36,837 bases of DNA from positions 1 to 36,837 of the forward strand of contig CALZZE010000026.1 of NCBI GenBank assembly GCA_945830575.1. The letters run 5' to 3'. Below, piece by piece: positions 1-15,092 of this stretch (within the stretch, counting starts at the first letter, position 1; each line of letters opens with the position of its first letter). The DNA comes from an uncultured Subdoligranulum sp. Its GTDB lineage: Bacteria; Bacillota; Clostridia; Oscillospirales; Ruminococcaceae. Made by a program: the position numbers and the translations under genes. The notes beneath the pieces are model-generated. The model was not told the DNA's origin. It saw nothing but the letters and a program-made list of their open reading frames with translations, and ran no database searches.

Positions 1-1423
1 TGGCCTGCAGGTCGTCCTTCAGCGGGTCGGAGGAGACCTCGATGGCCTTGCCCTCGTCGTCCACGGCCAGCAGGTAGCGCAGCCAGCCCGCCAGCGCCAG
101 CGGCACAGACACCAGCGTATTCAGATCGCGGCCCTCAGCGATATAGCTCTTGATGGTCTCGCCGAAGCGGATGCCCACCTTTTGGGAGGTGTCGGTGGCG
201 ATGCGCTGGGGCGCGTCCGGCATGAAGGGGTTGGGTAACCGCTGGGTGACCACTTCGTCGATGAAGTCCTTGGGGTCGAGGATGCCGGGATTCACCACTA
301 CGGGCAGGCCCTCCACGTAGCCCAGACGCTTGATGAGCGCCACGATGTCGGCGTCCTTCATCTCCTCGCAGATGAGGTCGTAGCCCAGCATGCAGCCGTA
401 CACGCTCATGGCGGTGTGCAGCGGGTTCAGGCAGGTGGTGACCTTCATGCGCTCGGTCTTGTTGACGGTGTCGCGATCGGTGAGGTAGACGCCGGCCTTC
501 TCCAGCGGGGGACGGCCATTGGGGAACTTGTCCTCGATGACCAGATACTGGGGACGCTCCGCGTTGACGAACGCCGCGATATAGGTGTTCTTGGAGGTGA
601 TGATGGGAGCCATATTCTCGATGCCGTCCTTGGCCAGGCTCTCCTCCACCATCTTGTGGGGACGCGGGGTGATCTTATCGATCATGGACCAGGGGAAGGC
701 GATCTTGCTCTCGTCATTCAGATAGTCCACGAAGTCCTGACCCACAAAGCCCTTCTCCGCCCAGGCCTTGGCCACCGTGACCACGCTGCTCATCAGCTTC
801 TCGCCGTTGTGGGAGCAGTTGTCCATGGAGACCACCGCCATGGGATACTGTCCGGCCTTGAACCGCTCGAACAGCAGCGCCGCCACCACGCTCATGGCGT
901 GACGGGCATGGTCGGGGCCTTCGTCAATGTCGGCCTGCACCACCGGCATCAGGCTGCCGTCCGGACGGTACAGCGCGTAGCCCTTCTCGGTGATGGTGAA
1001 GGACAGCATCTGCAGGCCGGGGTCGGTGAAGATCTCCTTCAGGCGGGCCATCATCTCCGGCTCGGCGGAGTTGACGCGCAGACCCTCGGCCACAGAGCCG
1101 ATGATCTCCCGGCTGGTGGTGCCGTCGGCGTTCAGCGTGACGTTCATGGTCAGGCTGTCGAAGGGGGTGTAGATTTTGTCGATGACGTCATAGTCAAAGG
1201 TATCGCCCACGATGATGCCCTTGTCGGACAGGCCCTCGTTGAGCAGCCGCTGCTGGAGCGCCGCCACAAAGCCGCGGAAAATGTTGCCGCCGCCGAAATG
1301 CACCCAGATGGGATGCTCTTTGGTGGCCTTCACCATGGCTTCGTGGTCGAACTTGGGCAGGGCAACGCCCTTGGCCTCCCATTCGGCTTTCTGGTTGACG
1401 ATGGATGCTGCGTTGAGTTTCAT
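1..1423 (-). CDS. Mannitol dehydrogenase-family oxidoreductase (mannitol/fructuronate/tagaturonate type), C-terminus off window
   Basis: NAD(P)-dependent polyol or hexuronate oxidoreductase of the mannitol dehydrogenase family (mannitol 2-dehydrogenase, UxuB, UxaB). The ATG at 1421-1423 opens a frame that stays open to the left edge, giving 474 visible residues of a family that usually has about 490-550, so only the C-terminal tail is missing. Visible signs are an N-terminal HFGGGNIFRGF nucleotide-binding segment near residue 40, the family signature in the form SMDNCSHNGEKL, and a later LNPLHTAMS stretch carrying the conserved catalytic-region His. It lies 34 bases downstream of the YiaK-like gene on the same strand, so the two are probably co-transcribed from the regulated promoter near 2622-2650. 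Substrate cannot be fixed from sequence; the neighbour suggests a keto-sugar acid rather than mannitol. Confidence 0.85.
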   Translation of the reverse strand, partial: MKLNAASIVNQKAEWEAKGVALPKFDHEAMVKATKEHPIWVHFGGGNIFRGFVAALQQRLLNEGLSDKGIIVGDTFDYDVIDKIYTPFDSLTMNVTLNADGTTSREIIGSVAEGLRVNSAEPEMMARLKEIFTDPGLQMLSFTITEKGYALYRPDGSLMPVVQADIDEGPDHARHAMSVVAALLFERFKAGQYPMAVVSMDNCSHNGEKLMSSVVTVAKAWAEKGFVGQDFVDYLNDESKIAFPWSMIDKITPRPHKMVEESLAKDGIENMAPIITSKNTYIAAFVNAERPQYLVIEDKFPNGRPPLEKAGVYLTDRDTVNKTERMKVTTCLNPLHTAMSVYGCMLGYDLICEEMKDADIVALIKRLGYVEGLPVVVNPGILDPKDFIDEVVTQRLPNPFMPDAPQRIATDTSQKVGIRFGETIKSYIAEGRDLNTLVSVPLALAGWLRYLLAVDDEGKAIEVSSDPLKDDLQA

Positions 1424-1457
1424 ACCGTAAAAACTCCTTTTCTGCTGCGATGATGGA

Positions 1458-2543
1458 TTATTTCTTGTCGTCGTCCTGCAGATCGTTCAGGATGCAGGCG
1501 CTGGCAATGTCCTTGGTCTCCATCTTGCCGGCGGCAAGGTCCAGAACCTGCTGCCAGACCTGCTCGTCCACCACAACGCCCAGCTCCATGTTCTTGGCGC
1601 GGGTCGCGGCGGTGCGCTCGCCGGGGCAGGTCACGCGGCCGCCCTCGCGGTCCGGCTCGGTGGCGTCAGCGGCGGCCACACGGTCGTCAAACTTGGCCTG
1701 GATCTCTTCCTCACTGCCGAACAGGTACGGGTCGTAGGCGATGAAGATCTGGCAGCAGCCGGTGCAGCTGCCGCGGCCTTCCCGGTCGAGGTCGGCGCCG
1801 GTCTTGCCGTTGGCCATGGCGGCGGCGGCCAGGTCCAGCGCGATGGCCATGCCGGTGCCCTTCCAGTAACCGGTGGGCAGAATGCGGCCGCTGGCCTCGA
1901 TGGCGCCGGGGTCGCTGGTCAGGTTGCCGTCCTTGTCAAAGCCGCCGGGGTAGGGCAGCTGCTTGCCCGCCAGACGGTAGACGCCCAGCTTGCCGTAGGC
2001 ATACTGGCTCATGGCCATGTCCAGCACGATGGGGCCGCTCTTGCGGGGGATGGCGATGCAGAAGGGGTTGTTGCCGACGCCGGGCTTTTTGGAGCCCCAC
2101 ATGGGCATGCAGCTCTCGGTGTTGGTCCAGCTGATGCCGATGAAGCCGGCCTCGGCAGCCTGCCAGGCGTAGGAGCCGCCGCGCATCCAGTGGGTGGTGT
2201 TCTTCAGCGCCACGCAGCCGATGCCATGCTCCTTGGCCAGCGCCACGGCGCGGTCCATGCAGAAGCGGGCGTTCAGCACGCCGATGCCGAGATGGCCGTC
2301 GTAGTTTTCCACAGCGCCCTTGGCGCCCACCAGCTCCGGCTTGGCGTTGATGTCCACCCAGCCCTTCTGCACATACTCCGCAAAGCGGGGCACGCGGTTG
2401 AGGCCGTGGCTCTCGATGCCTTCCAGGCTGCTGTCAGCGTGGGTGGAGGCGCAGACCTCAGCCTGCTCTTCACTCAGTCCGAGATTCAGGAATGCCTGCT
2501 TGACAGTGGACTTGACGGTTTCGTAGGGAACTCGAATACTCAT
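1458..2543 (-). CDS. dlgD: 2,3-diketo-L-gulonate reductase-like (YiaK/DlgD) Ldh-family oxidoreductase
   Basis: NAD(P)H-dependent 2-keto-acid reductase of the malate/L-lactate dehydrogenase (LDH2) family. Residues 40-55 hold the SHGLNRVPRF motif with the family's conserved His, and residues 118-131 hold HWMRGGSYAWQAAE, almost identical to E. coli YiaK, which reduces 2,3-diketo-L-gulonate. The later ILPTGYWKGTGM block is also shared with YiaK. At 361 residues it is slightly longer than YiaK (332), with the extra length in the C-terminal third, where a GRGSCTGCCQIF stretch has three Cys; these might be a local oddity. A GAAAGGAG site precedes the ATG. First gene of a leftward operon with the mannitol dehydrogenase-family gene, divergent from a GntR/FCD regulator. 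Family is sure; the precise substrate is inferred. Confidence 0.88.
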   Translation of the reverse strand: MSIRVPYETVKSTVKQAFLNLGLSEEQAEVCASTHADSSLEGIESHGLNRVPRFAEYVQKGWVDINAKPELVGAKGAVENYDGHLGIGVLNARFCMDRAVALAKEHGIGCVALKNTTHWMRGGSYAWQAAEAGFIGISWTNTESCMPMWGSKKPGVGNNPFCIAIPRKSGPIVLDMAMSQYAYGKLGVYRLAGKQLPYPGGFDKDGNLTSDPGAIEASGRILPTGYWKGTGMAIALDLAAAAMANGKTGADLDREGRGSCTGCCQIFIAYDPYLFGSEEEIQAKFDDRVAAADATEPDREGGRVTCPGERTAATRAKNMELGVVVDEQVWQQVLDLAAGKMETKDIASACILNDLQDDDKK

Positions 2544-2571
2544 GGTGGTTTTCTCCTTTCAATGGCTGCTA

Positions 2572-2604: not shown

Positions 2605-2621
2605 ATTTCTTATCTGAGAAT

Positions 2622-2650: not shown

Positions 2651-2716
2651 TAGCACGAATCACCAATTTTTTTGAAAGAATTCTTTCAAAATTACACAAA
2701 ATTTATAAGAATGGGC

Positions 2717-2769: not shown

Positions 2770-3489
2770 ATGACGGGACTCATTGTGCCGGAATTTCACC
2801 GGGATGAAAACAACCGAAAATATGCCTGCCGCGCGCTGCGTATGAATATTATGACGCTGCGATTGAAACCGGGGGAGGCCATCAACGAGGCGGAGCTGTG
2901 TGACCTTCTGCACATGAGCCGGACGCCCATTCATGAGGCTATCGCGGCACTGCGGGACGAATGGCTGGTGGAGATCTTCCCCCAGCGGGGGACCCGTGTG
3001 AGCCGCATCGATCCGGCGCTGGTGAAGGAGGGCTATGCCACCCGCCTGCTGCTGGAAAGCGATCTGCTGCGGGATTCGGCGGGCAAGCAGGGCCGGGCAC
3101 AGATCCATGAGCTGCTGGAATGTATGCGCAAGATGGAGCTGCTGCGGGACAAAATGCCGGAGGCAGTGGATGAGTTCATCGGTCTGGACGATGAACTGCA
3201 CCGCATGATCTACTTTTTCGGCGGCCGCCGCCACACATGGCATGCCATGCGCGGTCTGGTGAGCCACTATGACCGGCTGCGGTATCTGGACGCGCTGGAC
3301 GGCAATTGTGACTATGAGCGGGTGATGCGCCAGCACCGGGAATTCTGCGATTATCTGCTGATGGGCATGCCGGACGGCGTGAGCGCCGAACAGAAGGTGC
3401 GCGAACACCTGACAAGCTACAAGGGAAACCTGCTGGAGAGGATGGAGCGGCACCCGGATTACTTCTCCATTGAGGGCATTGAGAGATAA
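2770..3489 (+). CDS. GntR-family regulator, FadR/FCD type (regulator 1)
   Basis: Transcription factor of 239 residues with an N-terminal winged helix (about residues 15-80, with the EAINEAELCDLLHMSRTPIHEA recognition region and a QRGTRVSRI wing) and a C-terminal helical FCD ligand-binding domain. The FCD part carries the spaced Asp/His residues (for example DDELHRMIYFF) that in this family often bind a metal contacting a carboxylate effector. Divergent from the dlgD-mannitol dehydrogenase operon, with palindromic sites in the shared intergenic region. The likely role is a repressor relieved by a sugar-acid intermediate, and it probably also controls itself. Effector unknown. Followed by a strong terminator. 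Confidence 0.9.
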   Translation: MTGLIVPEFHRDENNRKYACRALRMNIMTLRLKPGEAINEAELCDLLHMSRTPIHEAIAALRDEWLVEIFPQRGTRVSRIDPALVKEGYATRLLLESDLLRDSAGKQGRAQIHELLECMRKMELLRDKMPEAVDEFIGLDDELHRMIYFFGGRRHTWHAMRGLVSHYDRLRYLDALDGNCDYERVMRQHREFCDYLLMGMPDGVSAEQKVREHLTSYKGNLLERMERHPDYFSIEGIER

Positions 3490-3542: not shown

Positions 3543-4364
3543 TCAGAACAGCCCGAACCGTTTGGCGGGAGGCGGGGCGGTCAGCGCGTCCAGCAGATAG
3601 TCATAGACCTGCTGCATGGCGGCGGGCTGCACCCACTGCACCTTGTCCCGGAATCCACCGTGCATGGTGGACATGACTTCCATTTCGCCCAGCATCATCT
3701 GCATTTCCGGCGGCCGGCCCAGAAAACCGCCCCCGTGTGCGGCGATGGCATCCAGAAATTTGGTGTCCCACTGGGGCATCACCGCCAGACTCAGCACCGG
3801 CTGACGCCGGGAGGGAAAACAGCATTCATCTCCCTCGGGCAGATACCGCACCATCCGTCCGTGATGGGCGGCCAGCCGCTTTTTGTCGCAGAATACCGCC
3901 GCGGCGGGCTTTTTCTCGCCGCCTTTGGCGTAAAGGGCCAGCGTGTCGCCGTAGCCGCAAACGTCCAGATTCACCACCACCGAGAATTCCCGGGTGCGGG
4001 CGGCCTCGAACAGCTTGGCGCCGGTGTGGCCCTTTTCCTCCCCGTCCAGAAACGCGAACCCAACAGGGATACCCTGTTCCCGGGTGGCCTTCGCCAGCGC
4101 AAGGAGGATGCACACCGCCGCCGCGTTGTCGTTGGCGCCGGGGCTGCCGGGGTGGCCGTCATAGTGGGCACACAGCAGGGGACACAGGGCATCACTCTCC
4201 GGAAACAGCAGATAGTTGCACGCCGGGTCGGGATGGGTCTCATCCGCCTCCTCGGTTTGCAGTTCCGGCACAAGGCCCTCCGCCGCAAAAGCGGCTTCCA
4301 GCGCGGCACGGCGGGCAGCGGCATCAGGCTGGGCCAGCGCCGCCAGATGGGTTTGCAGTTCCAA
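3543..4364 (-). CDS. M28-family zinc aminopeptidase/amidohydrolase-like protein
   Basis: Metallohydrolase of the M28/M20-like di-zinc fold. The ligand pattern is visible: His67 and the following Asp69 in CAHYDGHPGS, the bridging Asp79 in ANDNAA, the Glu109-Glu110 pair in FLDGEEKGH, Asp134 in NLDVCGYG and a final His near residue 242 in STMHGG. At 273 residues it is a minimal catalytic domain with no signal peptide or membrane segment, so it is cytoplasmic. The start is a TTG at 4364 with an AAAGGA site 10 bases upstream; no in-frame ATG fits. It is the last gene of the leftward operon headed by the second GntR gene. In a sugar-acid cluster it may hydrolyse an amide, such as an N-acyl or amino-acid conjugate, but that is inference. 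Confidence 0.82.
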   Translation of the reverse strand: MELQTHLAALAQPDAAARRAALEAAFAAEGLVPELQTEEADETHPDPACNYLLFPESDALCPLLCAHYDGHPGSPGANDNAAAVCILLALAKATREQGIPVGFAFLDGEEKGHTGAKLFEAARTREFSVVVNLDVCGYGDTLALYAKGGEKKPAAAVFCDKKRLAAHHGRMVRYLPEGDECCFPSRRQPVLSLAVMPQWDTKFLDAIAAHGGGFLGRPPEMQMMLGEMEVMSTMHGGFRDKVQWVQPAAMQQVYDYLLDALTAPPPAKRFGLF

Positions 4365-4391: not shown

Positions 4392-4874
4392 TCATAGGCA
4401 GGTGTCCAGCGCGACTTTGATCACGATTTTGCGCAGATCGGCAGGCTGGCCCGCCTGAATGGCGGGGATGTGCACATCCCACGGGAAGAACATGGCATAG
4501 CTGCCCACCTGCATCTCAAGGATGCCCTCCCGCTGGGCGGGGTCGTTTTTGTAAAAACGGATATCCCGGGGCGTGTCCAGCAGGTCTTCGTCCACCACGC
4601 CGCTGCCCAGATCGGGATACCAGCCGATGCGCTCGGGGCCGCCCGCCGCCAGAAACTGCACGTCAATGTAGCGGCGGTGACATTCGGGACGCAACTCCTC
4701 CCGGGGTTTGGTGGTCACGTCCAGAACCTGTAAAATCATGTTTTCGCCGTCCAGCTCAAAACGGCCCGGCTCATGGTGAGCCAGATCGTTCTCTTTCAGA
4801 AAGTTGACGGCACGGCGCAGCGGCTCGGGCAGCAGCGCCAGCTCAGAGGATTCGTAAATGTTGCCGGAAATCAT
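4392..4874 (-). CDS. YhcH/YjgK/YiaL-family protein (DUF386)
   Basis: A 160-residue cupin-like protein of the YhcH/YjgK/YiaL (EbgC-related) family. Recognisable blocks are the N-terminal MISGNIYES, the central HRRYIDVQFLAAGGPERIGW with the conserved His and Asp, and the C-terminal FFPWDVHIPAI with the metal-site His. Family members sit in sialic acid (yhcH) and 2,3-diketo-gulonate (yiaL) operons and are thought to act as sugar-acid isomerases or anomerases, with few proven activities. Here it lies 18 bases downstream of the SDR, with an AAAAGGAGG site. Finding both a YiaK-like and a YiaL-like protein in one island, plus a NanA-like aldolase, supports a keto-acid sugar pathway. Confidence 0.88.
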   Translation of the reverse strand: MISGNIYESSELALLPEPLRRAVNFLKENDLAHHEPGRFELDGENMILQVLDVTTKPREELRPECHRRYIDVQFLAAGGPERIGWYPDLGSGVVDEDLLDTPRDIRFYKNDPAQREGILEMQVGSYAMFFPWDVHIPAIQAGQPADLRKIVIKVALDTCL

Positions 4875-4892: not shown

Positions 4893-5675
4893 TTACTGTA
4901 ATGAGGTGCAGCCGCCGTCCACCTTGAGGGTTACGCCGGTGATGAACTCGGCGGCCTCACTGCACAGGAACAGCGCGGCGGCGGCAATGTCGCTGCCTTC
5001 GCCCAGACGTCCCACAGGAATGTGGCTGACAATCTTGTTGTAGAACGCGGGGTCATCCAGACGGTCGGAATTGATGGGGGTTCGCACAAAGGTGGGCGCG
5101 ATGGCGTTCACCGAGATGCCGTACTTGGCCCACTCCACGCCCAACTGCTGGGTGTACAGGTTGATGGCGCCCTTGCTGGCGCAGTAGGCGGCGTAATCCG
5201 ACAGGGCGCACAGGTACGCCTTGGCGGAGCTGAGGTTGACGATGCGGCCTTTATGGGCGGGGATCATCCACTTGCGGGCGGCGGCCGCGCAGACCAGATG
5301 GGTGCCCTTCACGTTCAGGTTCATCACCCGGTCAAAGCTGGCGGCGTCATACTGCTCGGCGGGTTTCAGAATGTTCATGCCGGCGCTGTTCACCACCATC
5401 AGGACGGGGCCGAAGGCCTCATCCACGGTGTCGATCATGGCCTGCACGTCGGCCTCATCGGTGATGTCGCAGCGCACCGCCAGATACCGGCGGCCCTCGG
5501 CGGCGGCCAGCTCCGCCAGATCGGGGGCACTCTCGGGATGACGGCTGCAAACGGCCACGTCGATGCCGTTTTGCAGGAACATCTCCGCGATGGCATGACC
5601 CAGACCGCTGGTGCCGCCGGTGATGAGCGCGGTGCTACCCACCGGGGCGAAGGGAGTTTTCATGGAAACAGACAT
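4893..5675 (-). CDS. Short-chain dehydrogenase/reductase (sugar-acid type)
   Basis: Classical SDR of 260 residues. The Rossmann TGGTSGLG motif is at residues 19-26, NSAG at 96-99, the catalytic Ser at 149/150, and Tyr164 and Lys168 in YAAYCASK; the C-terminal EFITGVTLKVDGG is typical. Closest in style to gluconate 5-dehydrogenase and 2-deoxy-D-gluconate 3-dehydrogenase, so it probably oxidises or reduces a sugar-acid hydroxyl. The start chosen is the ATG at 5675, which has a GAAGGAGATG site; the frame extends further upstream but would overlap a terminator hairpin at 5706-5728. That hairpin separates it from the cyclase gene upstream, so its expression may depend on partial read-through. Confidence 0.87.
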   Translation of the reverse strand: MSVSMKTPFAPVGSTALITGGTSGLGHAIAEMFLQNGIDVAVCSRHPESAPDLAELAAAEGRRYLAVRCDITDEADVQAMIDTVDEAFGPVLMVVNSAGMNILKPAEQYDAASFDRVMNLNVKGTHLVCAAAARKWMIPAHKGRIVNLSSAKAYLCALSDYAAYCASKGAINLYTQQLGVEWAKYGISVNAIAPTFVRTPINSDRLDDPAFYNKIVSHIPVGRLGEGSDIAAAALFLCSEAAEFITGVTLKVDGGCTSLQ

Positions 5676-5744: not shown

Positions 5745-6494
5745 TTACTTGCTGAACTCAGCCAGACCTTCAATGGCGTAGACGCGCACCGGGCAGGAAT
5801 CCAGACCGATGATGGGCACCGGCGCGTAGCTGATGAAGAAGGTGTCGGTGGTGAGCTGATCCAGATTCTCCAGAACCTCCAGGAAGGTGCAGTTCTGAGC
5901 CATCAGGATGTCGTGGAAGGGCTTGACATTGCGCACATCGCCCTCGATAGCCACGCCGTCACCAAAGCCGACGCACTGAACCTTGCGGTCCGCCAGCCAC
6001 TGGGCCATGTCCGCGCCGACCTGCAGACGATGGTCGGTGGGGCCGCCGGTGAGGCTGGTGAAGGGAGGAATCTTGTGGGGGCTGTCCAGGATGACGGTGT
6101 CGCCGGGCTGGACGCGGTCACCCAGAGCGGCCTCCAGGTCGGCGGCGGTGATCTGGTGATCCTCGGGCAGGTCCAGCGTCACATAGATGCCGCGGCCCAG
6201 GAACTGCTGCAACGGCAGCTCGGCCACGCTGGGCCAGTTGTTGTCGTGGTGGTAGGGGCACTCGCAGTGGGTGCCCAGATGGCTGCCGATGTCCACGTTG
6301 GTGTGGAAGTCAGGCACGTCACCGCCGGTGTTGAAGCGCCACAGATTGCAGCGGCGGCTCTCGGTGCTGGGGTCGATGACCTTGGTCAGGTCCACGATGC
6401 GCAGACCGCCCTTCTGGTACACCTTGGGGGGTAGTTGATCCTTGGGAACGGTTTTGGGCTTGCCGGCAACCCAATCATAAGTAAGCTCAGCCAT
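5745..6494 (-). CDS. Cyclase-family metal-dependent hydrolase (kynurenine formamidase-like)
   Basis: A 249-residue member of the cyclase/KynB-type family (PF04199), which hydrolyses amides, lactones or cyclic esters. The signature HLGTHCECPYHH lies at residues 72-83; the usual form is HxGTHxDxPxH, so Glu replaces the commonly seen Asp. A later segment with GDTVILDSPHK and a C-terminal PVRVYAIEGLAE also fit the family. AGGAGG precedes the ATG at 6494. It lies in the leftward operon between the ketopantoate-reductase-like gene and a terminator. Together with the HyuA-like protein and the M28 enzyme, it is one of three amide- or ring-opening hydrolases in this island, suggesting the substrate contains an amide, lactam or lactone. 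Exact reaction unknown. Confidence 0.85.
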   Translation of the reverse strand: MAELTYDWVAGKPKTVPKDQLPPKVYQKGGLRIVDLTKVIDPSTESRRCNLWRFNTGGDVPDFHTNVDIGSHLGTHCECPYHHDNNWPSVAELPLQQFLGRGIYVTLDLPEDHQITAADLEAALGDRVQPGDTVILDSPHKIPPFTSLTGGPTDHRLQVGADMAQWLADRKVQCVGFGDGVAIEGDVRNVKPFHDILMAQNCTFLEVLENLDQLTTDTFFISYAPVPIIGLDSCPVRVYAIEGLAEFSK

Positions 6495-6564: not shown

Positions 6565-7479
6565 TTATTTGCCGCGGCCTTCCATCGCATGGACCATCTG
6601 AACCGCGAATTCGTGGCTGGGGGTGGCAACGCTGCCCTTTTTGCCGGCCCGCACAATGCTGCCGCTGATGGTGTCCACCTCGGTGCGGCGGCCGTCCCGC
6701 AGGTCGGCATAGATGCTGGTCAGGCCGTTGGGGGAGCGGTCGCACACCGCTTTCACCTCGGCGACCTTTTCGTCATAGTCAAACTCCATGCCCAGTCCGG
6801 CGGCGGCGTCCACAGCCTCCCGGATGAGCTGGCAGCACATGGCCCATGCGGCCTCGTTTTGGGAAATGTAGCCCAGCGGCACCTGCAAAATGCCGGTGAG
6901 GACGCTGGCCGACACGTTGGTGAACATCTTGTTCCAGATCATCCGCTGCACGCCGTCGGAGGTGTCCGCCTCCAGACCACATTGGGTGAAGGCGTCGGCA
7001 AACTTCTGCAGACGGGCGGCGCTGCCGGTGACACAGCCCATGTGGGTGATGCCGCTGCCGCCGTGGTTGGTGACGCCCACGCCGGCCACCGAGGCGTTGT
7101 GCTGGGTGGTGCCGATGATGATGTGCTCCTCATCCACGAACTTGCCCAGCGTGTCCTCGTGGCCGCTGCCGTTCTGAAGGGTCATCAGGTAGGTGTCGGG
7201 GCCGATGACGCTGCGGTTGTTACGGAGCGCGCCTTCGCTGAACATGGCCTTGACAAAGACCACCACCAGATCCACCGGCTCCATTCCTTCGGTGGAGAGG
7301 GTGGCGTGGGGGTGGTACAGCTGGGAGGAACCGTCCGGTTCCCGGACTTCCAGACCCTCGGCGTTGACCTTGTCCACCAGCGCGGCGTTCACATCGATGA
7401 CGGTGACCTCGTGATGGCGGCTGAGATACGCGCTGAACAGGCCGCCCATGGCGCCGGAACCGAGCACTGCAATTTTCAT
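6565..7479 (-). CDS. 2-Dehydropantoate 2-reductase-like oxidoreductase (ApbA/PanE family)
   Basis: A 304-residue NAD(P)H-dependent 2-keto-acid reductase of the ketopantoate reductase family. It has the N-terminal GSGAMGG nucleotide site (residues 7-13), LQNG at 101-104, and the catalytic-region Lys184 in MIWNKMFTNVSAS, followed by the all-helical C-terminal domain. Full family length. An AAAAGGAG site precedes the ATG. In isolation it might be panE, but its place in a catabolic operon, without panB, panC or panD, argues for a paralogue acting on another 2-keto acid or 2-hydroxy acid. No gene symbol is given for that reason. Confidence 0.87.
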   Translation of the reverse strand: MKIAVLGSGAMGGLFSAYLSRHHEVTVIDVNAALVDKVNAEGLEVREPDGSSQLYHPHATLSTEGMEPVDLVVVFVKAMFSEGALRNNRSVIGPDTYLMTLQNGSGHEDTLGKFVDEEHIIIGTTQHNASVAGVGVTNHGGSGITHMGCVTGSAARLQKFADAFTQCGLEADTSDGVQRMIWNKMFTNVSASVLTGILQVPLGYISQNEAAWAMCCQLIREAVDAAAGLGMEFDYDEKVAEVKAVCDRSPNGLTSIYADLRDGRRTEVDTISGSIVRAGKKGSVATPSHEFAVQMVHAMEGRGK

Positions 7480-7569: not shown

Positions 7570-8253
7570 TCAGACAAAATATTGGGGCCTGCGCTGACGG
7601 CAGGCTTGCAGGATCGGCTCCATCTCGTCGTGCTCCCGCATCAGCGCCATACAGGCGTCCTCGTGGCGGCGGGTGCCCAGCGCCTGCACCAGTGCGGCGT
7701 GGGCACCGACGATGCGCCCCAGCACCGCCCGGTCCTCGTTGAGACGGTGCAACCGGTATAGGTCCGCGCTGGCGCGGCCCAGCGCCTGAAAGGCCAGAGG
7801 ATAGTCCGCCAGCGCGAACAGCTGTTGATGGAACTGAGTGATCAGCTTGGCGGCGCCGGACAGTGCGCCGCGGGAGAGCATCTCGTATTCTTCCACCACA
7901 AGATGCTCCAGCGGCTCAAAGGCATCGGTGGACAGATGCATCGTGAACAGCCTGTCCAGCACAGCCAGACCCGTGGTGCGCAGCATCCAGACACTCTGGC
8001 GGATATTTTCCGGGTCCAGCAGCGGCACATAGACGCTGCGCGGCCCGGTACAAAGCATTTTTTCATGGATCAGCTGGAGAAAGGTGTCATGCACCGGGGT
8101 GCGGCTGACGCCCAGCTGGGCAGCGATGTCCGCCTCCACCAGCCGCTCGCCGGGAAGGAAGAACATTTCGCAGATATACATCACAAGCACGCGGTAGGAG
8201 TACGCCCGGGCAGATTCCTCGGGAGGGCGCACAGCGCGGATCATGGTAGACAT
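7570..8253 (-). CDS. GntR-family regulator, FCD type (regulator 2)
   Basis: A 227-residue transcription factor with a GntR winged helix (residues 10-75, with ERLVEADIAAQLGVSRTPVH) and an FCD effector domain. The ATG at 8253 is chosen because AGGAGGAG lies just upstream; longer frames lack a site. It is the first gene of the leftward operon that continues with the ApbA-like, cyclase, SDR, YiaL-like and M28 genes, so it probably controls its own operon through sites at 8305-8316 and 8342-8353. Its wing (GPRSVYVPLL) lacks the QRGT form found in regulators 1 and 3, so it may see a different operator variant or effector. Confidence 0.88.
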   Translation of the reverse strand: MSTMIRAVRPPEESARAYSYRVLVMYICEMFFLPGERLVEADIAAQLGVSRTPVHDTFLQLIHEKMLCTGPRSVYVPLLDPENIRQSVWMLRTTGLAVLDRLFTMHLSTDAFEPLEHLVVEEYEMLSRGALSGAAKLITQFHQQLFALADYPLAFQALGRASADLYRLHRLNEDRAVLGRIVGAHAALVQALGTRRHEDACMALMREHDEMEPILQACRQRRPQYFV

Positions 8254-8576
8254 TGGCGGCTCCTCCTTTCTGCGGGCTGCAGGGGCCAACAGGCGGCCTG
8301 ACAGCTGATATTTTAGTGGGAAACCGTAAATCGTCTTTTATATATATTAGTATACACCAAGCCGGCGCAAATTGCAACACTGACTTGTATGCCAAAATTG
8401 TTGAATACTTCTTGTGCAATTTGCTAAAAAGCACTCCCCGAAATCGGGCAAAAAAGAAAAAAACGCAAAAAAAGCTCTTGCAAAACGCGCCGAGGCGTGG
8501 TATTTTATTGTCAGAACGATATGAGCTTGTGTGCAAACCATGGGGAAAATCGTTAAAATATCACTGAGGCCCTACC
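8254..8576. promoter_or_regulatory. Divergent control region between regulators 2 and 3
   Basis: No gene in these 323 bases. A leftward promoter TTGCAA (8377-8372), 17 bases, TATACT (8354-8349) serves regulator 2. A rightward promoter TTGCAA (8478-8483), 17 bases, TATTTT (8501-8506) serves regulator 3. ATATATTAGTAT at 8342-8353 is identical to a 12-base part of the operator at 2739-2750, and CTGATATTTTAG at 8305-8316 is related, so both regions may answer to the same FCD protein. The 8400-8480 stretch is A-rich. Confidence 0.55.
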
Positions 8577-9296
8577 ATGAATATGCAGAAACTAACTCAA
8601 AAAACGGTCGCCCGTGAGGATGTGTATGAGACCCTGCGCCAGCAGATCATTGAGTTTGAGCTGCTGCCCGGCGAGTTTCTCAGCGAAAACGGGCTGGCCG
8701 CCAAGCTGAATGTGAATCGCACCACCGTGCGGGAGGCGCTGGCCCGGCTGGAAATGGACCACTGCGTGGAGGTATTCCCCCAGCGGGGCACCCAAGTGAG
8801 CCGCATTTCTTCAGACCGCATCCGTCAGGCCGTGTTCCTGCGCAGTACGCTGGAGCAGAATGTGCTGGAGCAGCTCTGCGAGACCGGCGTTACGCCGGAG
8901 CAGTTCTCCCTGTTGGAGGAGAGCCTGCAGCGGCAGCGCAACTATTTTGCGGAGCAGAAGGAAAGCAGCCTTCTCAACGAGGACACCCGGATGCACCGGA
9001 TGCTCTACCGCTTTTGCGGCCGGGAGGCAGCGTGGAATGCATTTTCCACCCTCAACTGCGATATGATGCGCATCCGTTTCCTGAAGATACGCACCTTCAG
9101 TTATCCCCGCGCCCAGCTCGGGCCGGTGGACAGCTGGGAAAACCTGCTCATCGAGCACCGCATGATGCTGGACGCGCTGCGCAAGCGGGACGCCGAGGCG
9201 CTGGGACTGCTGAGCAGTGCCCATCTTTCCCACATCGAGCGCAACGCCGCCGACCTGCGGATGATCTACCCGCAGTATTTCGAGGCGGATGCCTGA
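8577..9296 (+). CDS. GntR-family regulator, FCD type (regulator 3)
   Basis: A 239-residue GntR/FCD regulator of the same length as regulator 1 and resembling it in the winged helix: ETLRQQIIEFELLPGEFLSE and NRTTVREALARLEMD for the HTH, and QRGTQVSRISSDRIRQAV for the wing. The C-terminal half is the FCD helical domain with EDTRMHRMLYRF as a likely metal/effector segment. The ATG at 8577 has GAGG 7 bases upstream. It reads toward the transporter and HyuA-like genes and is the probable local regulator for them. Three FCD regulators within 7 kb is unusual and suggests sensing of several pathway intermediates. Confidence 0.9.
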   Translation: MNMQKLTQKTVAREDVYETLRQQIIEFELLPGEFLSENGLAAKLNVNRTTVREALARLEMDHCVEVFPQRGTQVSRISSDRIRQAVFLRSTLEQNVLEQLCETGVTPEQFSLLEESLQRQRNYFAEQKESSLLNEDTRMHRMLYRFCGREAAWNAFSTLNCDMMRIRFLKIRTFSYPRAQLGPVDSWENLLIEHRMMLDALRKRDAEALGLLSSAHLSHIERNAADLRMIYPQYFEADA

Positions 9297-9573: not shown

Positions 9574-10950
9574 TTGGAGTTTATTATTGGTATTTTGCTG
9601 CTCCTCACGTTCTTTGGCCTCGCTTACTACTGCATTAAGGGCCACAACCTGATGATCGGCTTCCTCGTCATCACCATCGCATGGACCGTCCTGTCTCTGG
9701 GCGGCACCGCCGTTTCTTCCGCCGACTTCCTGGCGTCCAACCCTGTTCTGACCGACACCACGCTGGTCAAGATGCTCAACGCCATCTACCAGTCCGCTCC
9801 CGAAGGCTGGGGCACCACCCTGGTCAACGTCTGCTGGGGCGCCTGGTTCGGCCGCGTCCTGATGGAGACCGGCATTGCCTCCACCCTGATCCGTAAGACC
9901 GTTGAGCTGGGCGGCGACAAGCCCATGGTCACCATCGCCCTGCTGAACATCGTTACCGCCATCATCTTCACCGCCATGACCGGCGCAGGCCCCGTTATCG
10001 CCATCGGCGTTATCGTGCTGCCCATCATGATGTCCCTCGGTGTGCCCAAGGCCATCGCCATGTTCAGCTTCATGGAGAGCGTTGCCGCCGGCATCTACCT
10101 CAACCCTGTCAACTTCGCACAGTATCGTGCGTTCTTCATTGAGCCCAGCGAGATGGAAGCCTTCACCCTCGGCTGGTACGCCGGCAAGTGGGGCTATGCG
10201 GCCGTCATCATCTCCGTTGTGGTCGCCACCGTCCTGTCCGGCATCTTCCTCAAGACCTCCAAGACCAGCCATGCCTGGGCTGCTCAGACCCGCGGCGCTG
10301 CCGAGCAGAAGGATGCTCCCTTCTACACCCTGTTCCTGCCCATCGTTCCCGTGGCTCTCAAGATCGCGTTTGACTTCTCCGTCATCGGCGGCTTCGTCAT
10401 CGCCGGCTTCCTGGCCCTGTTCCTCTGCGGCAAGATGAAGGGTTCCTTCGCCGAAAACTGCCAGCTGGTCAACAAGCTGTACTATGACGGCGTTGTGGAT
10501 ACCGCTCCGCTGGTCGGCTTCCTGCTCACCCTGCCCATGTTCAACAAGGTTGCTTCCTACGCTTCTCCCTACTTCAAGGTCGTTCTCGGCCCCGTCATGC
10601 CCAAGAGCGAGCTGGTCGTCTGCGTCCTGTTCGCCGTCCTGCTGGGCCTGGGCCTGTTCCGTGGCCCCATGACTCTGGTCGGCTGCGGCGCCGCTACTCT
10701 GGGCGTGCTGTCCAACGTGGCGTCCTTCTCCGTGCCGTTCCTGTACTGCGTGTTCGCCATCCCCACCATCACCGTCAACATCGGTTCCTGCATCACCCAG
10801 TCCTGGGTTGCCTGGGGCCTGGCCTACACCAAGGTTGAGTCTAAGGATTACCTGAAGCTCTCCATTCCCTGCGCCTACATTGCCGGTATCCTGCTGTACG
10901 TGCTGACCATGGTCACCATGTCCGGTATGGGTCCTGAGTGGTTCATCTGA
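9574..10950 (+). CDS. Polytopic anion transporter (GntP/IT-superfamily-like), TTG start
   Basis: Integral membrane protein of about 458 residues with roughly 11-12 hydrophobic segments. The repeated pattern includes a GAGPVIAIGVIVLPIMMSLG block between helices and a PVNFAQYRAFF loop, which recall GntP/CitMHS-type carboxylate transporters of the ion-transporter superfamily; substrate unknown. The TTG at 9574 is chosen as start because AAGGGG lies 7 bases upstream and the first hydrophobic helix begins immediately; a longer frame from 9472 would add 34 polar residues without a good site. Codons are strongly biased (GTT, CGT, TCC, GGC), unlike the flanking regulators, so it is probably abundant. 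It is most likely the uptake system for the island's substrate. Confidence 0.85.
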   Translation: MEFIIGILLLLTFFGLAYYCIKGHNLMIGFLVITIAWTVLSLGGTAVSSADFLASNPVLTDTTLVKMLNAIYQSAPEGWGTTLVNVCWGAWFGRVLMETGIASTLIRKTVELGGDKPMVTIALLNIVTAIIFTAMTGAGPVIAIGVIVLPIMMSLGVPKAIAMFSFMESVAAGIYLNPVNFAQYRAFFIEPSEMEAFTLGWYAGKWGYAAVIISVVVATVLSGIFLKTSKTSHAWAAQTRGAAEQKDAPFYTLFLPIVPVALKIAFDFSVIGGFVIAGFLALFLCGKMKGSFAENCQLVNKLYYDGVVDTAPLVGFLLTLPMFNKVASYASPYFKVVLGPVMPKSELVVCVLFAVLLGLGLFRGPMTLVGCGAATLGVLSNVASFSVPFLYCVFAIPTITVNIGSCITQSWVAWGLAYTKVESKDYLKLSIPCAYIAGILLYVLTMVTMSGMGPEWFI

Positions 10951-11145: not shown

Positions 11146-13281
11146 ATGGCAGGTCATCGCGCAGTTCGCGTGGGCATTGACGTCGGCGGCACCAACACCA
11201 AGTGCGTTGCCATGGACAACCTCACCCACGAAATCATCGGCAAAAACGAAGTTCTGACCACACATGACGATAAAGAGGGCGTTGCCGCCGGTGTTGTGCA
11301 GTCCTTCAAAAACTGCATGGCGGAAAACAACATCGCTCCCGAGGACGTTGTCTTCGTTGCCCACTCCACCACGCAGGCCACCAACGCCTTCGTGGAAGGC
11401 GACGTTGCCGACGTTGGCATCATCGGCGTGGCCGGCGGCGGTCTGGAAGGCTTCTTGGCCAAGCGCCAGCTGGCCCTCAAGGACATCATCCTCGACGAGA
11501 AGGTTGGCCGTAAGATCCCCGTCCACAACACCTTCATCAAGAAGAAGGAGCTGACCGACGAAAAGATCAACGCTGCCATCAAGGACCTGCTGGGCCAGGG
11601 CTCCAAGGTCATCGTGGCGTCCATGGCTTTCGGTGTGGACAGCATGGACGAGGAAGTCAAAATTCACGACCTGGCTGAGAAGCAGGGCGTGCCGGTCTCC
11701 ATGGCCTCCGACATCACCAAGCTGTACGGCCTGACCCGCCGTACCCGCACCGCCGCCATCAACGCCTCCATCCTGCCCAAGATGATGGCCACCGCCAACG
11801 CCACCGAGAGCGCCGTTGTGGGCGCGGGCGTCAAGGTGCCTCTGATGATCATGCGCGGCGACGGCGGCGTTATGGAGATCAACGAGATGCGCAAGCGTCC
11901 CATCCTCACCGCTCTGTCCGGCCCCGCTGCCTCCGTCATGGGCTCTCTGATGTATCTGCGTGCCTCCAACGCCATCTACTTCGAGGTCGGCGGCACCACC
12001 ACCAACATCGGCGTCATCAAGAACGGCCGTCCCGGCGTGGACTATGCCCAGATCGGCGGCCATGACACCTACGTCAACTCTCTGGACGTGCGTATTCTGG
12101 GCTGCGCCGGCGGCTCCATGGTTCGTATCAACAACCACGGCGTCGAGGACGTCGGCCCCCGTTCCGCCCACATCGCGGGCTGCAAGTACGCCTGCTTCAC
12201 GCCCGAGGAGGAGATCGTCAACCCCGAGATCGTCATGCTCAGCCCCAAGCCGGGCGACCCCAGCGACTACGTGGCCCTCAAGCTGCCCAACGGCAAGATG
12301 ATCTGCTTCACCAACACCGACGCCGCCAACGTGCTGGGTCTGGTGGACGAGAAGTACTTTGCCCACGGCAACGCCAACGCCGCCCGCAAGGCCATGCAGC
12401 CTGTTGCGGACAAGCTGGGCATCACGGTGGAGGAGCTCTGCACCCAGATTCTCGACAAGGACTTTGAGAAGGTCAACGCCTGCATCACCGCTCTGGCCGA
12501 GAAGTATCAGCTGGACCACGATGCCATGCGTCTGGTGGGCTGCGGCGGCGGTGCTGCCGCGCTGGTGCCCTACTGCGCCGAGAAGATGGGCCTGCCCTAC
12601 AGCATCCCCGACAACGCGGAGGTCATCTCCTCCATCGGCGTTGCGCTGGCCATGGTCCGTGACGTTATCGAGCGCGTCATCCCCAACCCGACGCAGGAGG
12701 ACATCAAGGAGCTGAAGAAGGAGGCCATCGATGCCGCCATCAACTCCGGCGCCTCTCCCGACTCCGTGGAAGTCCACATTGAGATCGACAACCAGACCGG
12801 CAAGGTCACTGCCATCGCCACCGGCTCCACCGAGGTCAAGACCACCGACCTGCTGAAGGAGTGCGACGAGGACGAGGCCGCCGAGCTGGCCAAGGCCGAC
12901 TTCGGTCCCAAGGTCTCCAACGTGGAGCTGGCCGAAAAGACCGACAAGTTCTTTGTTTACAGCGGCAAGGTGGGCGAAAAGACCCCCGTCCGTATCGTGG
13001 ACAAGAAGGGCTTCATCAAGGTGCAGTGCTCCGACGCCAAGGCCGTCAAGGTCAAGGTCTCCGACTACAAGGAGGCCGTTGAGAACATGTGGAAGGAGCT
13101 GGCCGTCTTCAAGACCGACACCGTCCTGCGTCCCGACTACTTCATCTGCGCCGGCCCGCGTGTCTGCGACTACTCTGCGGTTGACCTGTCTCAGGTCCTG
13201 CTGCTGATGGATCTGGACATTGCCGACCGTGATGCCGATGAGGAGATCATCATCGTGGCGTCCATCAATGACGTCCACTGA
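11146..13281 (+). CDS. HyuA-type hydantoinase/oxoprolinase-family protein with C-terminal extension
   Basis: A 711-residue ATP-dependent amidohydrolase-type protein. Residues 10-19 are GIDVGGTNTK, the ASKHA phosphate-binding loop of the hydantoinase/5-oxoprolinase A subunit; HSTTQATNAFVEGDVADVG near 75-95 is the family switch region; GPAASVMGS and FEVGGTTTNIGV near 255-290 form the second ATP motif, and GCGGGAAALV near 465 the adenosine site. The last 180 or so residues, from about Pro505, are Lys/Glu-rich beyond the core and are not typical of HyuA. No HyuB (oxoprolinase B) gene is nearby, so it may act alone or with a non-canonical partner. Codon usage is that of a highly expressed gene. 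Likely reaction: ATP-driven opening of a lactam, imide or similar ring; substrate unknown. Confidence 0.85.
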   Translation: MAGHRAVRVGIDVGGTNTKCVAMDNLTHEIIGKNEVLTTHDDKEGVAAGVVQSFKNCMAENNIAPEDVVFVAHSTTQATNAFVEGDVADVGIIGVAGGGLEGFLAKRQLALKDIILDEKVGRKIPVHNTFIKKKELTDEKINAAIKDLLGQGSKVIVASMAFGVDSMDEEVKIHDLAEKQGVPVSMASDITKLYGLTRRTRTAAINASILPKMMATANATESAVVGAGVKVPLMIMRGDGGVMEINEMRKRPILTALSGPAASVMGSLMYLRASNAIYFEVGGTTTNIGVIKNGRPGVDYAQIGGHDTYVNSLDVRILGCAGGSMVRINNHGVEDVGPRSAHIAGCKYACFTPEEEIVNPEIVMLSPKPGDPSDYVALKLPNGKMICFTNTDAANVLGLVDEKYFAHGNANAARKAMQPVADKLGITVEELCTQILDKDFEKVNACITALAEKYQLDHDAMRLVGCGGGAAALVPYCAEKMGLPYSIPDNAEVISSIGVALAMVRDVIERVIPNPTQEDIKELKKEAIDAAINSGASPDSVEVHIEIDNQTGKVTAIATGSTEVKTTDLLKECDEDEAAELAKADFGPKVSNVELAEKTDKFFVYSGKVGEKTPVRIVDKKGFIKVQCSDAKAVKVKVSDYKEAVENMWKELAVFKTDTVLRPDYFICAGPRVCDYSAVDLSQVLLLMDLDIADRDADEEIIIVASINDVH

Positions 13282-13309
13282 TCCGTCCATTTACCCGCAC
13301 CACTGAAAC

Positions 13310-13348
13310 AGGGCGGCAGCAGCAACGCTGCTGCCGCCCTTTACTTTT
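13310..13348 (+). terminator. Terminator after HyuA-like gene
   Basis: AGGGCGGCAGCAGC (13310-13323), loop AAC, GCTGCTGCCGCCCT (13327-13340): a perfect 14-base stem followed by TTACTTTTT. It sits 20 bases before the next start codon. Confidence 0.85.
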
Positions 13349-13360
13349 TGGGAGAACGCC

Positions 13361-14158
13361 ATGACAAAGGAACGATTCAAAGAATTGATGCAGCCCATTG
13401 CGGATGGTCTGTTCGGCAAGCAGAAACCCTATCACATGCAGCAGGGAACCCCTCCGGTCGTCCGGCCTGTGGGGATGATCGTGGAGGACCTGTGCACCAT
13501 CAGCGATGACGAATGGGCAAAATACGCGTTCTCCCGGGAGCCGCTCAACGGCAAATTCACCGATGAACAGCGTGTGGAGCTGACCCGCAAGGCCATGGCC
13601 TGCGGCAGGGAATACGCCGAGCGCGTGGTGCAGGAGCAGGGCGTGCGTGACCCGGAAAAGCTGGCGGAAAAGCTGGGCATGAAGGTGGATTATCCCCGCA
13701 TGCCCCAGAGCACCGACCGGGTGCTGTTCGCGGAGTTCCGGGAACCCAACAAGATCCACATCTACATGGACGGCGTGGACAAGGGCGAGGTGCTGTTTGC
13801 CGAGCCGGGCGTGCGCCATGCGCTCACCGCCCAGCTGGACATCAAAAAGCTGTTGCTGGGCCACGAGCTGTTCCATTGGGTGGAGGAAAAATACCGCAAG
13901 GAAATCTGGACGCGCACCTACCGCCTGCGCCTGTGGGAGGTGGGGCCGGTGCACAACGACTCCACCGTGATGGTGCTGGGCGAGATCGCCGCCATGGCCT
14001 TCACGCAGGCGCTGAACAACCTGCGCTATTCTCCCTACGTGATGGACGCCTATCTGGTCTACGGCTATTCGCCGGAGGCCGCCAGCGCCCTGTACGAGGA
14101 GATGATGACCTTCGCCGGACGCACGCCGCGCCTGCCGGAGGAGCTGGAACCCGCCTAA
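13361..14158 (+). CDS. Unrecognised HExxH protein (putative zincin-type metallopeptidase)
   Basis: A 265-residue protein of a family I do not recognise. Residues 168-172 are HELFH, an HExxH zinc-site motif inside a helix (LLLGHELFHWVEE), and Glu208 in VLGEIAAMAF is placed as in zincins, where a downstream Glu is the third ligand. This arrangement resembles the ImmA/IrrE or M48-like groups, although length and surroundings differ. There is no signal peptide or membrane segment, so it is cytosolic. GGGAG precedes the ATG. It follows the HyuA-like gene directly, after a strong terminator, and precedes a convergent aldolase gene. Protease, amidohydrolase or structural zinc protein are all possible; only the motif is directly seen. 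Confidence 0.75.
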   Translation: MTKERFKELMQPIADGLFGKQKPYHMQQGTPPVVRPVGMIVEDLCTISDDEWAKYAFSREPLNGKFTDEQRVELTRKAMACGREYAERVVQEQGVRDPEKLAEKLGMKVDYPRMPQSTDRVLFAEFREPNKIHIYMDGVDKGEVLFAEPGVRHALTAQLDIKKLLLGHELFHWVEEKYRKEIWTRTYRLRLWEVGPVHNDSTVMVLGEIAAMAFTQALNNLRYSPYVMDAYLVYGYSPEAASALYEEMMTFAGRTPRLPEELEPA

Positions 14159-14168
14159 GAAATAGAAA

Positions 14169-14196
14169 AAGCGCCGGGGCGTTTGCTCCGGCGCTT
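14169..14196. terminator. Convergent terminator
   Basis: AAGCGCCGG (14169-14177) pairs with CCGGCGCTT (14188-14196). A-rich before and between the convergent HExxH and aldolase genes, so it can act in both directions. Confidence 0.7.
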
Positions 14197-14201
14197 GCCT
14201 G

Positions 14202-15092
14202 TTACTGGACAAGATCCCGGTCAAGGACCTCATCGATGTATGCCTTTTGATTGTCGGTCAGCGGGGCAAAGGGGCGGCGTGCCTCGCCCACGGGATAGCC
14301 CTGCCGGGCCAGCTCATACTTGATGGCGGGGATGAGGCCCACCCGGCACATGGCCTCCATGCAGTTGTTGGCCTTGTGCTGCAGTGCCAGCGCCCCGGCC
14401 CGGTCGCCCTGCTCGAACAGCGTGAAGATTTTCTTGTAGTGGGGCAGCATCATGTTGAAGGTGCTGCCGATGGACCCGATGCAGCCCAGCGCCTGCCCGG
14501 CCACCATGGTCTCATCGTAACCGTCAAAGGCGATGAGGTCGGGATTCAGGTTGAGGATGCGCTCCATCTGGAACAGGTCGTAGTTGGTCTGCTTGACGCC
14601 CAAGATCGCTCCGCTGCGGAACAGCCGGACGTACTCCGGGTCGGACACGTTGAAGGACTTGTGGGTGTTGCCCGGGAAATTGTAGATGAGCACCGGCCGG
14701 CCCGCAGCCTCGGCAATGTCGTAGTAATAGCGGCAGATCTCCTTGGGGCCGAACCCGTAGTAAAACGGTGCCGTGGCAGCCACAAAGTCATAGCCCATGC
14801 CCATGGCGGCTTTGGTGTACCGCACCGCTTCATCGGTGCTGATCGCACCCACATGGGCAATCAGATTGGTCTTGCCCGCATAGGCGGCCGCCGCCTCAAA
14901 TATCTGAATCCGCTCCGCCTCGGTGAGCAGGAAACACTCGCCGCTGCTGCCGCCCACAAAAAAGCCGGCGGCGCCCTCCCGCAGATTGCGCTCCATCACC
15001 CGGTGCAGCGCCTCACCGTCCACCCGGCCCTGAGCGTCATAGGCCGTGATACAGGCGGAGTAAATACCGCCCAGACTCTCTTTGGATTTCAT
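14202..15092 (-). CDS. N-acetylneuraminate lyase-like aldolase (DHDPS/NAL family)
   Basis: A 296-residue class I aldolase of the dihydrodipicolinate synthase/N-acetylneuraminate lyase family. GGSSGE (47-52) replaces the GSTGE of NanA; Tyr137 in YNFPGN is the conserved Tyr; Lys167 in GVKQTN is the Schiff-base Lys; and DLFQMERI followed by FDGYDE and GSIGSTFNM matches NAL more closely than DHDPS. It would cleave a 2-keto-3-deoxy-type acid into pyruvate and an aldehyde. The ATG at 15092 has AAAAGGAG upstream; a longer frame would run into the tRNA-like fragment. Probably monocistronic. A TGATATATT motif 114 bases upstream links it to the FCD regulon. Not assigned nanA because the specificity loop differs and no nanE or nanK is present. 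Confidence 0.83.
   Translation of the reverse strand: MKSKESLGGIYSACITAYDAQGRVDGEALHRVMERNLREGAAGFFVGGSSGECFLLTEAERIQIFEAAAAYAGKTNLIAHVGAISTDEAVRYTKAAMGMGYDFVAATAPFYYGFGPKEICRYYYDIAEAAGRPVLIYNFPGNTHKSFNVSDPEYVRLFRSGAILGVKQTNYDLFQMERILNLNPDLIAFDGYDETMVAGQALGCIGSIGSTFNMMLPHYKKIFTLFEQGDRAGALALQHKANNCMEAMCRVGLIPAIKYELARQGYPVGEARRPFAPLTDNQKAYIDEVLDRDLVQ

Follow-up and report, generated by a model that had tools for sequence, protein, structure and literature searches.

Gene content and conservation of the island

The window, i.e., the whole stretch of DNA analysed, is one whole contig (C26, 36,837 bases) of an uncultured Subdoligranulum sp. It carries a gene island that reaches the left contig end and is therefore cut there. 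The island comprises 14 genes within positions 1-15092 and is made of four blocks, three of which adjoin an FCD regulator (Table 1). The first block (minus strand) pairs YiaK with a UxuB-like dehydrogenase, an FCD regulator being divergently oriented next to it; the second is a minus-strand run, FCD regulator-ApbA-cyclase-SDR-YhcH-M28; the third is a plus-strand run, FCD regulator-transporter-HyuA-HExxH; the fourth is a lone NanA-type aldolase gene (minus strand) starting at 15092. Families were called by Pfam and NCBIfam scans of the window proteins, and the gene starts of SDR, transporter and NanA-type aldolase were taken from reading of the sequence. All the families named in a preliminary description of this DNA were recovered by these scans, the three GntR/FCD regulators included.

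Table 1. Genes of the island, with family scores and cut-offs
Gene	Position	Strand	Family evidence and remarks
Mannitol_dh family (fructuronate reductase/UxuB-like)	2-1423	-	PF08125/PF01232; truncated by contig end
YiaK-type 3-dehydro-L-gulonate 2-dehydrogenase	1458-2543	-	NF009750 381.8 bits, cut-off 316
GntR/FCD regulator 1, divergent from YiaK	2770-3489	+	PF00392, PF07729
M28-family metallohydrolase, TTG start	3543-4364	-	PF04389 65.5 bits
YhcH/YiaL family (sugar anomerase-like)	4392-4874	-	PF04074 120 bits; TIGR00022 109.5 bits, cut-off 45.5
SDR dehydrogenase (gluconate 5-dehydrogenase-like)	4893-5675	-	PF13561; corrected start ATG behind GGAG at 5675
PF04199 cyclase-family metal hydrolase, island-type subfamily	5745-6494	-	PF04199
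ApbA/PanE-type 2-keto acid reductase	6565-7479	-	TIGR00745 231.7 bits, cut-off 141
GntR/FCD regulator 2, heads the ApbA-cyclase-SDR-YhcH-M28 run	7570-8289	-	PF07729 33.1 bits, above cut-off; PF00392 26.4 bits, cut-off 27
GntR/FCD regulator 3, upstream of the three-gene module	8577-9296	+	PF00392, PF07729
Module gene 1, transporter (weakly DcuC-like), TTG start	9574-10950	+	DcuC 35.6 bits, cut-off 100
Module gene 2, HyuA-like ASKHA ATPase	11146-13281	+	PF01968 206 bits (cut-off 22.9), PF05378 70 bits
Module gene 3, HExxH protein, gluzincin-like	13361-14158	+	Invariant HExxH and Glu residues; no Pfam match
NanA-subfamily class I aldolase (DHDPS family)	14202-15092	-	PF00701 203 bits

Searching the named genomes with the HyuA protein located 45 loci; BLAST and profiles served to compare the genes that they contain. 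Repeat reads of one place were dropped, i.e., L048 and L120 (of L004), L115 and L123 (of L026), L049-L051 (of L117-L119) and L122 (of the window), and loci lacking this HyuA (L116, L124, L132) were left out of the counts. Loci with a HyuA of at least 1390 bits are called close; 27 of them have at least 7 kb on each side, the window being excluded from the counts. These 27 loci are not independent, many being close kin (e.g., eight of Lacrimispora or Hungatella type). YiaK is found in 26 of them, cyclase, ApbA and M28 in 21 each, YhcH in 19 and SDR in 18. A zinc dehydrogenase, absent from the window, is found in 20, NanA in 10, UxuA and UxuB in one each. Around the HyuA copies below 1390 bits (n = 31, including six short frames or contig-end fragments, some of the close form), the counts fall to 4 for YiaK, 2 for UxuB and 1 each for M28, YhcH and UxuA, and there is no cyclase, ApbA, SDR, NanA or zinc dehydrogenase.

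The order of the blocks varies between Oscillospiraceae, Lachnospiraceae and Synergistota. The island genes are thus genuinely linked, their co-occurrence being conserved despite changing order. The cyclase leads to the same picture: in a profile search its island-type subfamily exceeds 400 bits in 2 of 391 class genomes (next score 99.6), and the two copies (window; L115) are both island genes. Strong cyclase matches occur in three of 41 relatives (G000, G020 and G021), and HyuA is found in six of them, the close form occurring only in G000 and G020.

Unrelated operons that merely adjoin by chance would also give several blocks in several orders, a NanA gene in only a minority of the close loci, and a genome such as the genus relative G021, where cyclase-ApbA-YhcH stand without any HyuA found (this genome is 83% complete and its contig stops about 4 kb past the cyclase). 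The conserved co-occurrence contradicts this explanation for all genes except NanA and the left-end dehydrogenase, as does the rarity of the cyclase subfamily, both carriers of which have the island. Chance neighbourhood is thus highly improbable. The preliminary description had proposed a single unit that breaks down a carboxylated compound of sugar type, to be abandoned if the genes proved scattered; the opposite, i.e., conserved linkage, was found. The island is a real, conserved catabolic unit made of mostly known families.

In G021, the cyclase-ApbA-YhcH block (L163, G021:C9:38000-52155) lies next to a lipoprotein that reads as TRAP solute-binding-like, and to an FCD-like regulator.

The transporter-HyuA-HExxH module

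HyuA copies of at least 400 bits number 69, of which 60 have room on both sides and nine do not. In the 60, the transporter is directly upstream in 57, the HExxH gene directly downstream in 57, and both in 55; the linkage between HyuA, HExxH and transporter genes, suggested as a check in the preliminary description, is thus very strong. The five exceptions are L036, L039 (transporter downstream instead), L046 (a fragment), L114 and L121 (zincin 2.2 and 2.9 kb distant, respectively). Plasmids of haloarchaea (Halocatena, Halostagnicola and two Haladaptatus species) also bear the row: a gene annotated as citrate transporter or NhaC family, HyuA, and a gene for 171-173 residues, the annotated HyuA gene and the next one overlapping by 4 bases. 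These rows lie near an FAD-dependent oxidoreductase, and the third protein of Halostagnicola is weakly zincin-like. The window transporter has no Pfam match at E 1 and no PDB match at 0.1 with a profile. HyuA's regular partners are thus two families without a Pfam name.

The HyuA-subunit domain is clearly present in the window protein. Its AlphaFold model has a predicted local distance difference test score (pLDDT) of 78, and the top PDB matches of this model by Foldseek include 9h03, 5svc, 5m45, 5svb, 5l9w and 6yra. The seven best matches are ATPase subunits of N-methylhydantoinase, of acetone and acetophenone carboxylases and of caprolactamase, with 669-795 columns aligned, template modelling scores of 0.47-0.56 on the query and root-mean-square deviations of 8-15 Å; such deviations mean that the domains match better than their arrangement. 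The best sequence matches are likewise hydantoinase or carboxylase subunits.

The ATP site is altered. In CapA, the caprolactamase ATPase subunit, the motifs comprise two phosphate Asp sites, of which D295 is important, and a GxxPGP adenosine motif (PMC8453981). In the subfamily the first phosphate motif DxGGTxT (DVGGT) is kept, with D12, G14, G15, T16 and T18 conserved throughout the 24 aligned sequences. In the second one, Glu280 replaces Asp in all 24, while the haloarchaeal copies L147 and L148 retain Asp. The GxxPGP motif is absent, with GPRSAHIAG in place of the GPRSAGAIPGP of the canonical copy L132.

HyuB is missing as well. HyuA relatives function with a HyuB-type subunit or domain, and caprolactamase requires both the ATP site in CapA and a metal site (modelled with Zn) in CapB (PMC8453981). 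No HyuB (PF02538) was found in 25 genomes, i.e., the own genome and 24 relatives, and among the 21 genomes with an island locus it was found in one (that of L015), while six of the 14 control genomes gave a HyuB match in the same search. At 690 bits or more, the class sample contains at least nine copies of the HyuA subfamily, in seven genomes; the next score is 109. Its members are annotated as hydantoinase/oxoprolinase; since HyuB is absent, they are unlikely to act as such in these genomes. What is new in the island is this HyuA lacking HyuB and regularly accompanied by the transporter and the zincin, and no paper on a HyuB-less HyuA paired with a zincin was found in the open-licence literature.

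These results bear on the substrate suggested in the preliminary description, i.e., a sugar acid with a lactam or amide, which HyuA or cyclase would open; M28 would trim it in such a scheme. The label of ring- or amide-opening hydrolases stands at the family level for HyuA, cyclase and M28, and fits such a substrate; the activity itself does not follow from it. The cyclase has 1r61, isatin hydrolase and kynurenine formamidase as kin, with a weak arylformamidase kinship (34.9 vs. 223 bits). The M28 protein keeps the motifs AHYD, GANDN, DGEE, NLD and MHGG, which hold the metal ligands, in 22-24 of 24 aligned sequences (window included), and has no PDB sequence match at 0.001. Against the lactam, HyuB is lacking in the own genome and in 20 of the 21 island genomes, and none of the 14 island genes matched a family of aminotransferases or deaminases. 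Opening of a lactam or amide by HyuA in the known way is not supported, given the missing HyuB and the difference in two of the three ATP-site motifs, and the lactam substrate is on the whole improbable.

Two types of HyuA can be distinguished. Type B comprises the copies of at least 900 bits in which Lys ends the first phosphate motif; this Lys is present in 44 of the 44 copies with room (3 kb on both sides). Near these 44 lie a transporter (43), the HExxH gene (44), YiaK (32), UxuB (2) and FAD_oxidored (1). Near the 22 lower-scoring copies, the transporter is found 21 times, HExxH 17 times, FAD_oxidored 20 times and YiaK never. Twenty of these 22 are Asp-type, and exactly those 20 have FAD_oxidored nearby; the other two are the fragment L046 and the Deinococcus copy L150. 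The sole type-B copy near FAD_oxidored is that of L126, a locus which also contains another HyuA, of Asp type. The Asp-type L107, with no FAD_oxidored found, speaks against the association; it has only 1.2 kb upstream and stands outside the counts. In the HyuA tree, made by a quick method and with an unsure root (one very distant outgroup row), the Lys type forms one clade of 45 rows (Shimodaira-Hasegawa-like approximate likelihood ratio test support of 100) plus one long-branch Deinococcus row. The switch thus took place essentially once, and the association of Asp or Lys with FAD_oxidored amounts to about one event. In the same tree three copies from Synergistota fall within those of Lachnospiraceae, suggesting that the gene has moved between phyla. 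The island also occurs sporadically within the genus and, taken together, it looks like a diet-related trait that is apparently transferable between bacteria.

Several observations concern single modules. Genome G281 has two Lys-type modules (L125 and L115), M28 and YhcH adjoining the second one, whereas neither was found in the main-island stretch. In L108 and L109 (two genomes of one family), an Asp-type module and FAD_oxidored adjoin a gene for an M81/MlrC-family metallohydrolase. A TIM-barrel-like gene by an Asp-type module (L112:13093-13785, minus strand) has a weak NanE match (21.9 vs. 27 bits), and a look-alike of it is found in the same position in L113.

The Lys of type B presumably resembles that of sugar kinases and ASKHA activators. 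Together with the lower-ranked fold matches of HyuA, i.e., glycerol and xylulose kinases, and a weak BadF match (24.2 bits, cut-off 31.5), it would suit a kinase-like HyuA that phosphorylates the imported sugar acid itself, the zincin being accessory. However, the top fold and sequence matches are all hydantoinase or carboxylase subunits, and the lower-scoring type retains Asp and yet pairs with the same transporter and zincin partners. A kinase-like HyuA is thus rather unlikely.

The HExxH protein has an AlphaFold model with pLDDT 91.4, and all 35 sequences compared share H168, E169, H172, E175 and E208. The family is found in 16 of 398 genomes of the phylum, own genome included. There is no Pfam match and no PDB sequence match at E 1, and Foldseek gave weak fold matches in the PDB (lowest E 0.3), with IrrE/PprI among the best (probability 0.38-0.57). 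One haloarchaeal member just exceeds the cut-off for Zincin_1 (22.6 bits, cut-off 22.4), and a score of 17.8 bits for Peptidase_M78 (cut-off 22) was obtained with one haloarchaeal member. This layout of HExxH plus downstream Glu, the IrrE/PprI matches and the Peptidase_M78 score would agree with a regulatory protease of the ImmA/IrrE type cutting a repressor, HyuA acting alone or being inactive. It must be noticed that the zincin stays although the regulators adjoining the module vary in family, i.e., GntR/FCD (Pfam, window), LacI and ROK (by reading) and IclR (by annotation). No XRE-type repressor was noticed beside the module, no scan aimed at XRE having been made. A role as regulatory protease is quite unlikely.

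Sugar-acid enzymes and a candidate pathway

YiaK scores above its curated equivalog cut-off, and its best solved structure is E. coli YiaK (1nxu, 295 bits; first non-YiaK 151). The E. coli yiaK operon and its promoter respond to L-ascorbate and galacturonate (PMC6958661). For the SDR, the only solved structure at 1e-45 is gluconate 5-dehydrogenase 1vl8. A homologue of the mannitol_dh gene of the window adjoins UxuA in L013 and L037; the UxuA-UxuB pair lies directly upstream of the module in L037 and about 6 kb downstream in L013, and in L106 UxuB stands one gene behind the module. UxuA is above cut-off in L013 and in the own genome. L114 contains a 2-keto-3-deoxy-6-phosphogluconate (KDPG) aldolase above cut-off and, below cut-off, a protein like the kinase of 2-keto-3-deoxygluconate (KDG).

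The own genome has a second cluster (L116, G000:C12:36000-55000) with an ApbA-like gene, an FCD-type regulator, a TRAP permease (TIGR00786 above cut-off; YiaN 283.5 vs. 800), a second YiaK (388.8 bits, cut-off 316), UxuA, a YiaL-family gene and three zinc dehydrogenases (RspB/YjjN-like). As judged from family matches, YiaK, UxuA/UxuB and the genes of L114 and L116 converge on a probable hexonate/hexuronate chemistry ending in KDG.

The NanA-type aldolase has N-acetylneuraminate lyases as best solved structures. Its assignment in the preliminary description holds for the subfamily and falls just short for the function, the NanA equivalog cut-offs not being reached (NF003164 262.9 vs. 281; 216.5 vs. 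382 bits). The YhcH protein stays below the YhcH/NanQ anomerase equivalog (97.1 vs. 160 bits), only the family-level TIGR00022 being exceeded. The link with sialic acid made there is thus weak, and sialic acid was rejected as the main reading of the substrate.

From the gene content, the linkage, the absence of HyuB and the motif changes observed, the following proposal is made. The transporter would import a cyclic anionic substrate. HyuA would activate it with ATP by phosphorylating an oxygen of a carbonyl or enol, a mechanism that has been proposed for HyuA relatives. The zincin may then stand in for HyuB, its metal-bound water finishing hydrolysis or ring opening by analogy with CapAB, since the CapB metal site is needed in caprolactamase (PMC8453981) and the zincin offers an HExxH-Glu site. 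This HyuA-zincin partnership, the reaction and the substrate form the hypothetical portion of the proposal. The product would pass to YiaK and to dehydrogenases (SDR, ApbA and mostly also RspB/YjjN-like zinc dehydrogenases), then through UxuB/UxuA-type steps, and an aldolase would release pyruvate. These redox and aldolase steps, expected from the families, agree in outline with the redox steps and final aldol cleavage of the preliminary description. Overall, a catabolic unit for a hexonate- or hexulosonate-type sugar acid, built of rearrangeable blocks, with the module as front end and with HyuA and zincin as partners, is the reading preferred here; it is held tentatively, at somewhat less than an even chance.

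L-ascorbate would fit, because its ring opening gives 3-keto-L-gulonate, a substrate named for YiaK. Ring opening of an ascorbate-type lactone requires a driving force, which counts for this substrate. The candidate route would lead from L-ascorbate to 3-keto-L-gulonate, gulonate, fructuronate, mannonate and KDG, and finally to pyruvate and glyceraldehyde. L-ascorbate itself as the substrate is nevertheless distinctly improbable. Rather unlikely also is the wider view that the module is a new kind of ATP-driven import and hydrolysis system, shared by bacteria and haloarchaea, in two types, with a minimal zincin replacing HyuB, the gut version opening a cyclic vinylogous acid such as L-ascorbate.

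Several points weigh against the preferred reading. (i) The Glu at the second phosphate site and the lack of GxxPGP mean that the ATP chemistry may differ. (ii) Zincins of similar layout are mostly proteases. (iii) A strong terminator-like hairpin (13310-13340; 14 pairs, loop of 3, T-rich tail) sits in the 79-base gap separating HyuA from the HExxH gene. (iv) No zincin was found after HyuA in Selenomonas, and neither transporter nor zincin partner was found for the Deinococcus HyuA. (v) The UxuB-like protein of the window, which is truncated, reaches 115.8 of the 603 bits of fructuronate reductase (NF011611), and its complete relative in L013 reaches 135.2. (vi) Two island zinc dehydrogenases tested have PRK10083 (RspB/YjjN) as best match, presumably L-gulonate/L-galactonate 5-dehydrogenase, at 297.8 and 245.1 vs. 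376 bits. (vii) M28, cyclase and ApbA have no firm step in the candidate pathway, and G021 indicates that blocks can separate. (viii) Kin of UlaD, UlaE and LyxK beside distant modules were not confirmed: the decarboxylase-like candidate for UlaD in L114 is best matched by 3-hexulose-6-phosphate synthase (214.3, cut-off 200; UlaD 96.8 vs. 294), the TIM-barrel gene taken for UlaE in L114 matched no NCBIfam family at 1e-5, and the candidate for LyxK in L039 is best matched by xylulokinase (243 vs. 380 bits).

If the wider view of the module is true, it would imply an unphosphorylated fermentation route for vitamin C through 3-keto-L-gulonate. If the HyuA-zincin pair is an enzyme, ATP-driven hydrolysis would have a newly recognised design, and the pair would provide a defined gene test for gut and rumen bacteria consuming the sugar acid, which may be vitamin C or a product of its breakdown.

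Beyond the island, the matched genes of the right half of the window have other functions according to the family scans. A tRNA-Val gene (15372-15448, minus strand) adjoins the island, its 3' end pointing toward it, and this gene is closely preceded by a promoter-like site with a perfect TTGACA-17-TATAAT sequence (15493-15465). Integration of the island at tRNA-Val was considered and rejected: among 15 loci scanned, tRNA genes occur in L016 only. None was found in the close kin scanned (L002, L003, L033 and L004), which is a weak test, most of these loci being without the NanA end. Farther right are a glycosyltransferase gene (19561-20550) and, at 24939-27935, consecutive nucleotidyltransferase, RmlD-type and RmlB-like genes, as in dTDP-rhamnose synthesis. 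Two long reading frames (21499-23325, minus strand; 23612-24838, plus strand) have no Pfam match at 0.001 and are putative genes.

Comparison with known systems

The ATP-dependent lactamases, hydantoinases and oxoprolinases and the acetone and acetophenone carboxylases (HyuA plus HyuB, CapAB) share with the window system the HyuA-subunit fold and the DVGGT motif. The window system differs from HyuAB and CapAB in having no HyuB, a Glu in the second phosphate motif and no GxxPGP, and in its transporter and zincin partners. With the ImmA/IrrE and Zincin_1 zincins, the third module protein has in common HExxH and a downstream Glu helix, whereas it lacks a Pfam match at E 1 and its fold matches are weak.

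Sialic acid catabolism (NanA, YhcH/NanQ) has in common a NanA-subfamily aldolase and a YhcH-family protein; here both are below the equivalog cut-offs, and neither NanE nor NanK is among the family matches of the island genes in the window. The hexuronate pathway (UxuB-UxuA-KDG) shares the UxuB-like protein in the window and UxuA above cut-off in L013 and the own genome, whereas it would here be fed by the HyuA module, and the window UxuB-like protein scores well short of the cut-off for fructuronate reductase.

With the yiaKLMNO-lyxK-sgbHUE cluster of E. coli, an operon for 2,3-diketo-L-gulonate that responds to ascorbate, the window has in common YiaK (above cut-off) and a YhcH/YiaL-family gene, and the second cluster of the own genome also a TRAP permease. 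LyxK and SgbH are not among the family matches of the island genes in the window. In contrast to the E. coli cluster, the system described here has the HyuA module as importer block, together with zinc dehydrogenases and UxuA/B-type genes.

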